From contig NZ_JAKZMM010000011.1 in assembly GCF_022809355.1 (NCBI RefSeq), forward strand, positions 1 to 64,000: a DNA stretch of 64,000 nucleotides, read 5' to 3'. Below, piece after piece: positions 9,924 through 51,893 of this stretch. Both the position numbers and the translations under genes were made by a program. The stretch's first letter is position 1. Each line of letters begins with the position of its first letter. This DNA comes from Parabacteroides faecalis. Its GTDB lineage: Bacteria > Bacteroidota > Bacteroidia > Bacteroidales > Tannerellaceae. The notes below the pieces were generated by a model. It searched no databases. It was not told the DNA's origin and saw only the letters and a program-made list of their open reading frames with translations.

Positions 9924-9961
9924 ATTACCTCAATAGTTCTCGTGTTAATAATTAAGAAATC

Positions 9962-10047
9962 TTTATTCGCCCAGGGCGAACATATATTCGGCGTCGAAGA
10001 TTATATGTTCGCCGTGGGCGAATATATAATCAACGTGAGCGAATAAA
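9962..10047. repeat. Four-unit 21-bp palindrome array (element A)
   Basis: Four imperfect dyads follow one another with an exact 21-bp period (equivalent C residues at 9968, 9989, 10010 and 10031). Unit 1 is TTCGCCCAGGGCGAA, unit 2 TTCGGCGTCGAA, unit 3 TTCGCCGTGGGCGAA, and unit 4 is degenerate ending GAGCGAA. AT-rich 6-7 bp spacers such as CATATA separate them. Outer arms TTTATTCGC (9962) and GCGAATAAA (10039) close the 86-bp element. An extra 12-bp inverted repeat joins 9975-9986 to 10002-10013. It lies between kdsC and maf. Function unknown. Confidence 0.85.
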
Positions 10048-10072
10048 ATAAAAATCATCTATTCTTCCATAA

Positions 10073-10108
10073 AATAATACTTCGGTCCAGATTTACCGAA
10101 GTATTATT
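10073..10108 (-). terminator. Stem-loop behind kdsC, probable terminator
   Basis: AATAATACTTCGGT (10073-10086) and ACCGAAGTATTATT (10095-10108) form a perfect 14-bp stem with an 8-nt loop. On the minus strand it is followed by a weakly T-rich stretch, 15 bp after the kdsC stop. Confidence 0.65.
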
Positions 10109-10122
10109 ATCTTATTTATAAA

Positions 10123-14098: not shown

Positions 14099-15217
14099 AT
14101 GAAGATGAAGACTAGTATGTACCTCATGCTATGCAGCATGTCGTTGTTGTGTGCATGTGGAGAAAAGAAGCAGACAATGCCAGGCGAAAAGTACAAAACA
14201 CTGACTGTAGAGACCAGTAATCAGACCTTACAATCCACGTATCCAGCATCTTTACGTGGACAACAATCGGTAGAAATCCGTCCACAAGTGAGCGGAACTA
14301 TTACCGACATCCGTATTAACGAAGGCGATCTGGTTCGGAAAGGACAAGTATTGTTTATCATCGACCAAGTTCCTTACAAAGCAGCGTTAGAAACAGCTCT
14401 TGCCAATGTAAAAAGTGCAGAGGCTAAATTACAAACAGCCCGCCTGACGGCCAACAGTAAAGAAGAATTGTTTAAAGAAAACATTGTATCTGATTTCGAC
14501 CGACAGACGGCACGTAACCAATTACTCGAAGCGGAAGCCGCATTAGCACAAGCCAAAGCGGAAGAGACCAATGCTAGGAATAATTTATCCTATACAGAAG
14601 TGAAGAGTCCTGTTGACGGTGTAGCCAGTATGATTCCATACCGTATTGGTGCTTTAGTTAATAGTAGTATCTCAGACCCCCTTGTTACTGTATCAGATGA
14701 TTCCCAAATCTATGCCTATTTCTCAATGGCCGAAAGCCAAATGCTCGACCTTATTCAACAATATGGATCACTGGAAGAAGCCAAAGAGAAAATGCCGGCA
14801 GTTAGTCTGACATTAAGTAATGGCCAAATCTACAACTACGAAGGACGCATTGATGCCATCAGTGGTACAGTAGATGAAGGTACTGGCGTAGTAAGCTTAC
14901 GTGCCACTTTCCCAAACACAGGTCATTTACTGCGTAATGGAGGTAGCGGAACAATCTCTGTCCCCACAGTACATAAAAATTGTATCGCCATTCCTCAAGC
15001 GGCTACCTACGAATTACAGAATCGAGTTTTTGCATGGAAGGTTGTTGATGGAAAAACACAATCAACACCTATTACCATATATAAATATAATGACGGAAAA
15101 ACCTACATCGTTCTTTCCGGTTTAGCAGAAGGCGATATGATTATTGCCGAAGGAGCTGGTCTGATGCGTGAAGGTACAGCCGTTAATACCGAATCATCAA
15201 CCGAACCCATAAAATAA
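14099..15217 (+). CDS. RND efflux periplasmic adaptor (membrane fusion protein)
   Basis: Adaptor linking the inner-membrane pump to the outer-membrane channel, 372 residues. The signal peptide has lipobox LCAC with Cys20, so it is anchored in the inner membrane by lipid. The order is beta-barrel strand, lipoyl half (PQVSGTITDIRINEGDLVRKGQVLF), a helical hairpin at about 95-155, lipoyl half (VKSPVDGVASMIPYRIGALV), barrel and membrane-proximal domains. This is the AcrA/MexA layout. It is the first gene of a three-gene pump operon, 9 bp ahead of the pump gene, behind a promoter flanked by putative LytTR sites. Confidence 0.95.
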   Translation: MKMKTSMYLMLCSMSLLCACGEKKQTMPGEKYKTLTVETSNQTLQSTYPASLRGQQSVEIRPQVSGTITDIRINEGDLVRKGQVLFIIDQVPYKAALETALANVKSAEAKLQTARLTANSKEELFKENIVSDFDRQTARNQLLEAEAALAQAKAEETNARNNLSYTEVKSPVDGVASMIPYRIGALVNSSISDPLVTVSDDSQIYAYFSMAESQMLDLIQQYGSLEEAKEKMPAVSLTLSNGQIYNYEGRIDAISGTVDEGTGVVSLRATFPNTGHLLRNGGSGTISVPTVHKNCIAIPQAATYELQNRVFAWKVVDGKTQSTPITIYKYNDGKTYIVLSGLAEGDMIIAEGAGLMREGTAVNTESSTEPIK

Positions 15218-19764: not shown

Positions 19765-19850
19765 AGTCCGCTTGAAACAATTGTGATCTTTTAAGACAAT
19801 CATAGCTTGTCTAAGAGAATCTTTCCTACATGCAATGTTTCAAGCGGACT
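19765..19850. repeat. 86-bp palindromic element (element E)
   Basis: Outer arms AGTCCGCTTGAAAC (19765-19778) and GTTTCAAGCGGACT (19837-19850) are a perfect 14-bp inverted repeat. Inside are short dyads centred near 19768, 19791, 19810 and 19833, and a second pair AGACAA/TTGTCT (19794, 19807). Total length and dyad spacing match the arrays at 9962, 25442, 35238 and 51779, though the units are more diverged. It could also help end transcription of the pump operon, but no T-run follows. Confidence 0.6.
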
Positions 19851-25422: not shown

Positions 25423-25441
25423 AAAAATAGTGAACATTCAA

Positions 25442-25529
25442 TTTTTTGACAACTGTGCTAAAGCTTTTCCATATATGTGATAAAGCTTTTTGACAGATAT
25501 GGAAAAGCTTTTCGACAGCTGTCAAAAAA
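25442..25529. repeat. Four-unit 22-bp palindrome array (element D)
   Basis: AAGCTT occurs at 25461, 25483 and 25505, exactly 22 bp apart, separating four 16-17 bp units. The fourth spacer position (25527) is degenerate, AAAATT. The whole element is one nested palindrome centred on the middle AAGCTT. Outer arms are TTTTTTGACA (25442) and TGTCAAAAAA (25520); inner arms of 15 bp are AAAGCTTTTCCATAT (25460-25474) and ATATGGAAAAGCTTT (25497-25511). It lies between the convergent genes menA and DUF2200. Confidence 0.85.
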
Positions 25530-25606
25530 ATTAAAATCCTACGAGATTCGGAGTTGTTTCCAGACTAGAAGATACATCGATACCCGCTTTTCCGAAGAAA
25601 CAACCG

Positions 25607-35237: not shown

Positions 35238-35325
35238 CTTTGTTCGCCCTGGGCGAACATATAGTTGCCCACGACGAATATATATTCTCCGACGGCGAAT
35301 ATAAAATCGCCACCGAAGAACAAAG
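35238..35325. repeat. Four-unit 21-bp palindrome array (element B)
   Basis: Units begin at 35243, 35265, 35285 and 35306. Unit 1, TTCGCCCTGGGCGAA followed by CATATA, equals unit 1 of the array at 9962 except for one central base. Spacers are TATATA-like. The element is concentric about 35281.5: outer arms CTTTGTTC (35238) and GAACAAAG (35318), centre GAATATATATTC (35276-35287). It lies between the potassium channel gene and EamA. Confidence 0.85.
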
Positions 35326-51655: not shown

Positions 51656-51778
51656 ACGAGTCAACCTCGTTCAGAAATAAGTTAAACGAAAGTCAACCCC
51701 TTTTATTTATAAAGAGATTTCAAGTCAACTAAATCCGTTAAATGACACTTCTAATTCCTTTAGAAAGCAATTTTTTAC

Positions 51779-51864
51779 CGTTTCACCCGGGTGGAACGAT
51801 CTCTTCACAGCTGTGGAACGATCGTTCCACCTAGGTGAGACGATCGTATCACAAGGGTGAAACG
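51779..51864. repeat. Four-unit 22-bp palindrome array (element C)
   Basis: Units TTTCACCCGGGTGGAA (51781), TTCACAGCTGTGGAA (51804), TTCCACCTAGGTGAGA (51825) and TATCACAAGGGTGAAA (51847) are separated by CGATCTC, CGATCG and CGATCG. The element is concentric about 51821.5: outer arms CGTTTCACCC and GGGTGAAACG, centre GTGGAACGATCGTTCCAC, a perfect 18-bp palindrome. It lies in the 321-bp convergent gap between rmuC and EamA. A small AACGAG/CTCGTT hairpin also overlaps the rmuC stop (51655-51671). Confidence 0.87.
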
Positions 51865-51893
51865 ATAAAAATATAACGGGAAACAGGAATAAA

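Follow-up and report, generated by a model that had tools for sequence, protein, structure and literature searches.

Evenly spaced palindrome arrays in a Parabacteroides genome: probable landing pads for ISAs1-family insertion sequences

In a 64,000-nucleotide stretch of the Parabacteroides faecalis genome (contig NZ_JAKZMM010000011.1, positions 1 to 64,000; hereafter the window), the gap between maf and kdsC contains four imperfect palindromes, or dyads, repeated with a period of 21 bp (array A1, 9962..10047). The locus raises the question of what such an element is, and whether its spacing or its letters are what matters. A preliminary description had proposed an intergenic family defined by geometry: the same four-dyad plan would recur elsewhere in the window with mostly different sequence, arguing against a simple transposon copy.

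Dyads were scanned by summing four dyad scores, tried at every period. The best score was 25 at 9962, 25 at 25442, 26 at 35238 and 27 at 51779, values that were reached by 0.1%, 0.7%, 0% and 0%, respectively, of 1000 local order-1 shuffles; the plan with a period of 21-22 bp is thus borne out at these four places. They correspond to array A1 (dyads TTCGCC..GGCGAA, family A), array C (25437..25536; four dyads TTTTGACA..TGTCAAAA with linker AAAGCTTT, period 22, family C), array A2, a second family A copy (35238..35325, period 21-21.5), and array D (51774..51869; four dyads TTCCACC..GGTGGAA with linker ACGATCGT, period 22, family D), none of which is assigned a strand. The fifth place, described as a diverged form (19765..19850, again without strand), drops out by dyad score, since its value of 23 is matched by 2.2% of 1000 local order-1 shuffles and only outer arms remain. 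This 86-bp inverted repeat is flanked by genes for an efflux protein and for a protein with a TonB-receptor plug domain; its outer arms (AGTCCGCTTGAAACA/TGTTTCAAGCGGACT) span 15 bp, and inner dyads are not clear. Array A1 itself lies in a longer stretch (9943..10078, no strand) common to a subset of A copies, the flanks being common to the window and the loci L003, L028_14546, L005 and L014. A terminator-like hairpin (AATACTTCGGT..ACCGAAGTATT, 10062-10110) adjoins the array, and the similarity of A1 to the copy at G000 C1:115367 runs on across it.

The proposed comparison of a genome scan with shuffled sequence gave a clear excess centred on periods of 21-22.5 bp. Across 1,229,659 bases of the same genome, scores of at least 27 were found 11 times at periods of 21-21.5 and 10 times at 22-22.5, whereas one Markov-2 copy of these bases had none in either range; some of the matches scoring 26-27 resemble chance hairpins. 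At the neighbouring periods of 20-20.5 and 23-23.5, six and three matches appeared at this threshold, partly the same arrays, and at 17-19.5 and 24-26.5 there was 0 or 1 each. A smaller scan of intergenic DNA only, with a threshold of 26, yielded seven matches at period 21 and four at period 22, versus 0, and also five at period 31, about one and a half periods. The plan extends to relatives: in 1.19 Mb around 80 kdsC loci, 16 matches at 21-21.5 and 16 at 22-22.5 scored at least 26 (two each in shuffles), three each scored at least 28 (0 in shuffles), and the 11 matches at 20-20.5 (versus 0) at 26 or above vanished at 28. In another Parabacteroides genome, G012, an excess at 22-22.5 (11 versus 0 at 26 or above) is in part a CRISPR-like array (L162, ~14270-14830), whose repeats, about 66 bp apart, give false matches in the dyad scan. 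Two further Parabacteroides genomes, G013 and G015, have one clear array each (L186 and L185, respectively) without a clear excess, and 215 kb from other families gave little.

Sequence comparison sorts the arrays into families A (TTCGCC), B (GTTCAC), C, D (TTCCACC) and E (ATTCAC), with a family F that has a single member in the genome sample. The whole genome holds family B at 23 places (23 of 25 candidates scored), family C at no fewer than 40 (40 of 65 candidates scored) and family D at 23, two of them weak. The arrays at 9962 and 35238 belong to one family, being about 80% identical over 70-72 bp. The statement that each locus has mostly its own sequence consequently holds between families and between species and fails between loci, and the argument against a simple transposon copy is not supported: each family is scattered through a genome in many similar copies, so copying does occur. 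Four units per array is the rule in family B (20 of the 23 aligned places, one of these adjoining an extra partial unit) and is not universal, given three units at two places, five at one and a two-unit array copy at L119. As short palindromes in many intergenic copies, the arrays share a property of REP/BIME elements. Further array-like stretches of other sequence lie at L024 (19623-19717), L124 (19812-19906), L121 (3095-3187) and L027 (8253-8346) and are possibly more families in the same genome. The flanks of family B (L213-L238) show weak, symmetric base preferences in fixed register up to 23 bp on both sides and are otherwise unrelated; this may stem either from a preferred target or from a further, degenerate unit at the outside. 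A CTCGTTA-like flank motif is common to C, D and E, its k-mers being only about 5- to 10-fold enriched.

Relatives carry different sequences on the same array plan. None of 40 relatives matched family A, and two of 37 gave weak matches to family B. With an excess over shuffles and with sequences that differ among families and species, the notion of an intergenic family defined by geometry stands. A viral origin was rejected: the A pattern, the B pattern and the core pattern of the relative G600 had no exact match in viral contigs, and the ISAs1 transposase discussed below had one relative there, at 39% identity.

The strongest evidence for a constraint on geometry comes from the arrays of G600 and G201, where spacing is kept as most letters of the linkers drift. 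Cores matching AACATSSSSATGTT were searched for with one mismatch allowed in ten fixed positions, a search that fixes the core letters and leaves linker length as the only free result. All 11 gaps between neighbouring cores are exactly 9 bp, whereas mean linker identity is 0.42, compared with 0.37 +/- 0.03 for random sequence; column 2 of the linker is T in 10 of the 11.

A second line of evidence is mobile DNA, a link absent from the preliminary description. Several C and D arrays lie at contig ends beside longer repeats, and in the G000 contigs C33, C63, C54, C50, C71 and C83 an array follows some 110-160 bases after the start. The assembly was probably broken by identical insertion sequence (IS) copies next to the arrays. 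A complete IS of 1288 bp lies at L117:7614-8901. Its PF13808 (DDE_Tnp_1_assoc) and PF01609 domains, inverted ends and target site duplication (TSD) of 9-10 bp place it in the ISAs1 family, whose TSDs are about 8-10 bp long; weak plasmid matches of its transposase are annotated as ISAs1 family transposase. A genome search with this IS returned at least 29 matches (40 of 63 candidates scored) and 26 distinct junction flanks, 13 per IS end. Two further flanks, L324 and L326, both adjoin C arrays and are as far from them as their twins L310 and L313 are; each pair has at least the first 40 bases of the flank in common, including part of the array, and diverges further into the array, possibly through gene conversion or assembly.

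Matching the 26 flanks by TSD joined ten pairs with exact duplications of 9-10 bp, where 0.013 pairs are expected by chance. All ten reconstructed insertions are inside or beside arrays of three sequence families: seven outside (six at C, one at D) and three inside (two in C, one in E), although DNA within 45 bp of an A-F array makes up only 0.62% of the sampled genome. The other six flanks are unpaired, two at arrays and four (L305, L308, L314 and L317) without an array. Among 28 clear flanks, 17 are array-side, and the 11 others comprise seven far sides of paired insertions and the four unpaired ones; a degenerate end-like copy, L325, also had no array.

Insertion is locked to the phase of the dyads. 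Junction phases were taken from alignment to the C, D and E consensus; an earlier automatic array grid had given scattered phases of the duplication centres. Fifteen of the 26 flanks could be placed on a consensus, eight outside the array, 28-30 bp away from the centre of the first dyad (one period plus about 7 bp), and seven inside. Modulo 22, 12 of these junctions fall at -6 to -8 and three at -2.5 to -3 (Rayleigh p 8e-6, paired flanks not being independent), the latter class being the other side of the same duplication. The phase alignment covered C, D and E, and no ISAs1 junction was seen at A or B: an IS end within 60 bp was found at 0 of 14 family A and 0 of 8 family B sample places, and an 8-base IS-end match beside one of the 23 B copies (L219) has the wrong orientation.

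Related elements in other species behave in the same manner. All 11 IS copies fetched in G042 (a partial gene), G294 (66% identity), G362 (64%), G201 (49%), G716 (67%, three copies with flanks alike on both sides, maybe not independent) and G600 (53%, four copies) touch arrays; a partial copy in G453 was left out. The arrays, with a period of 22 bp in G042, G294 and G362 and of 23 bp in G716, G600 and G201, have by reading sequences other than C and E, that of G294 resembling D. Nine copies lie outside, at 29.0 bp (L347 and L373, the latter read by eye, the script having placed its later dyads at 51 and 73), 29.5 bp (L374, L397, L407) and 30.0 bp (L399, L400, L403, L375). Inside an array, the duplication covers -7 to +3 of the dyad at L404/L405, and L395 lies at about -3.5 by reading. 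Matching 10-bp duplications were found for five insertions in other species. Among more distant IS relatives, L347 alone of 15 loci had an array beside the IS, and in a second set none was found in 18 of 21; since the detector also missed L373 and L375, these absences carry little weight. At L377 (43% identity) an end-like motif was located without an array on the side seen, and L349 contains a stretch scoring 26.

A second, mobile-element-like sequence, end2, keeps the same register. In the window, its relic (51658..51747, + strand; 90 bp, 90% identical to the query copy) follows directly on the rmuC stop codon, and its array-facing end stops 41 bp short of the centre of the first dyad in array D. 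A query of 111 bp has 15 matches in the genome, every one of them next to a D array towards which the query end points, at -19 to -21 (seven), -29 (one) and -41 to -42 bp (seven) from the first dyad centre (p 1.6e-5), so that the two main distance classes are one period apart. For end2, no transposase was recognised by eye among the ORFs around L334, and the other end of the element was not found. The restriction to D suggests that end2 has a sequence preference. With two IS-type elements inserting in dyad register and 11 of 11 linkers of 9 bp being near-random in sequence, the earlier proposal that structure matters is supported.

The surroundings of the arrays appear neutral. Thirty-seven placed intergenic elements occupy 22 tandem, 10 divergent and 5 convergent gaps, as compared with 157, 64 and 40 among 261 background gaps of at least 130 bp, without any excess between convergent or divergent genes; terminator or BIME-like placement was rejected on this ground. 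One of the 37 is also inside a called ORF, and a coding reading was rejected because a period of 22 is not a multiple of three. Alignment of orthologous loci, another check that had been proposed, was carried through for the maf-kdsC gap. The gap is syntenic at 55 of 80 loci and no longer than 125 bp in 52 of the 55. Of the other three gaps, L089 and L093 are longer, and L037, the one that was scored, has an array-like stretch of other sequence (score 26, p 0.008); the array at 9962 looks like a lineage-specific gain. In the orthologue search for the C locus, DUF2200 was present in four of 31 genomes, P. faecalis included.

Taken as a whole, the arrays are probably REP-like, spacing-constrained landing pads into which an ISAs1-clade transposase inserts at a fixed dyad phase. 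About four palindromic sites, two helical turns (21-23 bp) apart, occur in several unrelated sequence families per genome, and a dimeric protein, either a host protein or the transposase itself, may bind at every dyad, always from the same face of the DNA. The ISAs1-clade transposase inserts the IS at a fixed phase, with a target duplication from about -7 to +3 of the dyad. Insertions fall within the array or one period beyond it, the latter 28-30 bp away from the centre of the first dyad. One protein per dyad on one face fits insertion one period outside, insertion inside at the same phases and the use of different sequences; we infer that geometry rather than sequence guides the transposase, most likely via such a dimer. 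The IS may benefit from a safe, repeated, non-coding target.

On the main rival reading, the arrays are selfish repeats of an ordinary REP- or MITE-like kind, and the IS recognises an extruded hairpin or cruciform in the absence of any protein lattice. It is a rather unlikely reading with some observations in its favour: RNA folding of 12 array strands gave strong structures (z -4.4 to -14.5), the families are dispersed repeats without enrichment between convergent or divergent genes, and REP elements are known IS targets, some being cut at the palindrome axis (PMC1525189, in part). Nevertheless, the lock on insertion also holds one period beyond the array, where a dyad is degenerate at best, and single hairpins need no constant 9-bp linkers of near-random sequence. 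An ordinary MITE should moreover leave a target duplication, and no flanking direct repeats of at least 5 bp were present at the 18 B copies covered (of 23) or at the 11 C copies, among 30 loci, that had the anchor used. RAYT/REPIN elements were rejected: a PF01797 search of this genome for a Y1 (RAYT-type) transposase gave 0 matches, with positive controls in 5 of 14.

Operator-like dyads on one DNA face with fixed spacing would also be expected if the arrays were operators of a regulator of the neighbouring genes, IS targeting being a side effect. This is improbable: each family has many copies, most not close to gene starts (median distance 146 bp, compared with 78 bp to gene ends), and divergent gaps are not in excess (10 of 37 elements versus 64 of 261 background gaps).

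Each array could alternatively be transcribed and form a single hairpin, about 43 bp long, with a role in mRNA stabilisation or processing, which we consider very improbable. The long hairpins are near-complete, and family B has a strand asymmetry (counts of G-U versus A-C within dyads 36:7; in the orientation chosen, 13:23 for E and 0:5 for F), but A shows no such asymmetry (36:35), and in C (25:18) and D (16:11) it is weak. Within copies there is no compensatory change, either in local dyads (z -0.7 for C, -0.2 for D, 1.6 for B) or in the long hairpin (z -4.7 for C, -3.6 for D, 0.5 for B), orientation and gene context look neutral, and Rfam 15 at gathering score matched three tRNAs in the window and none of the arrays.

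That the arrays are parts or products of the IS, such as outer ends or scars, is extremely unlikely in spite of their constant distance from IS ends and of array C on both sides of the L117 copy. The L117 case is explained by recombination, as the TSD of each of its two flanks matches that of a flank elsewhere. Against this reading, one and the same IS end is found next to three different families, intact arrays reappear when the flanks of the three inside insertions are joined at their TSDs, and only four of 50 sampled A-E places have an IS end within 60 bp.

Returning to the landing-pad reading, a more far-reaching version can be put forward tentatively, on somewhat doubtful ground: the arrays might represent a class of Bacteroidales elements defined by spacing, the dyads carrying a periodic protein assembly whose ruler, one period plus 7 bp, addresses ISAs1-clade transposases, so that a single transposase could serve arrays unrelated in sequence. 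That IS can target repeated palindromes is already known from REP elements. Here, one transposase uses at least three unrelated array sequences in one genome, and related transposases elsewhere use still other sequences with a base-pair offset that is almost the same, which makes target choice by geometry directly testable. The results point to the possibility that Bacteroidales chromosomes carry a DNA-bound assembly that has gone unrecognised, may explain assembly breaks beside arrays and suggest a spacing-based address for DNA insertion. No account of such arrays, or of ISAs1 elements targeting them, was found among the titles and opening lines of abstracts listed from a literature collection that holds few subscription journals.

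Among known systems, IS30-type hot spots are palindromic and follow a single sequence consensus. As there, an IS is drawn to palindromic sites; in contrast, the feature common to the sites described here is a geometry carried by unrelated sequences. Binding of the IS30 target is mentioned in PMC1525189, the accessible part of which describes REP palindromes as specific targets of IS from several families, with all copies associated for some IS. The likeness to REP/BIME elements is that repeated intergenic palindromes serve as IS targets (Tobes and Pareja 2006, PMC1525189, in part); REP/BIME elements with RAYT carry a GTAG or CGTC tag at one end (PMC3733652, in part). Unlike REP/BIME elements, the present arrays comprise several unrelated families used by one IS, have a dyad spacing of 21-23 bp, receive insertions also one period outside the array and occur in a genome without a Y1 RAYT transposase. 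Porphyromonas is a related genus of Bacteroidales. Its species P. gingivalis harbours BrickBuilt, a MITE/minisatellite with intergenic 23-nt tandem repeats that is nearly confined to one species, according to the available part of PMC4596501. Intergenic repeats of similar period are shared with the arrays, but BrickBuilt has a leader, a tail and IS5-like terminal inverted repeats around a block of direct repeats (PMC4596501, in part), as against about 90 bp of palindromes here. Reading of the array alignments revealed no terminal repeats of the BrickBuilt type. IS1202-family IS target dif/pdif sites, and a contact of their transposase with the bound protein has been suggested in the part of PMC10132070 available. 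They resemble the ISAs1 elements in inserting at a fixed distance from a site, which is protein-bound in their case (PMC10132070, in part). They differ, as far as the same part of PMC10132070 goes, in their transposase family, a 5-bp TSD and an XerC-bound target, whereas the ISAs1 elements generate duplications of 9-10 bp and address arrays of several dyads.
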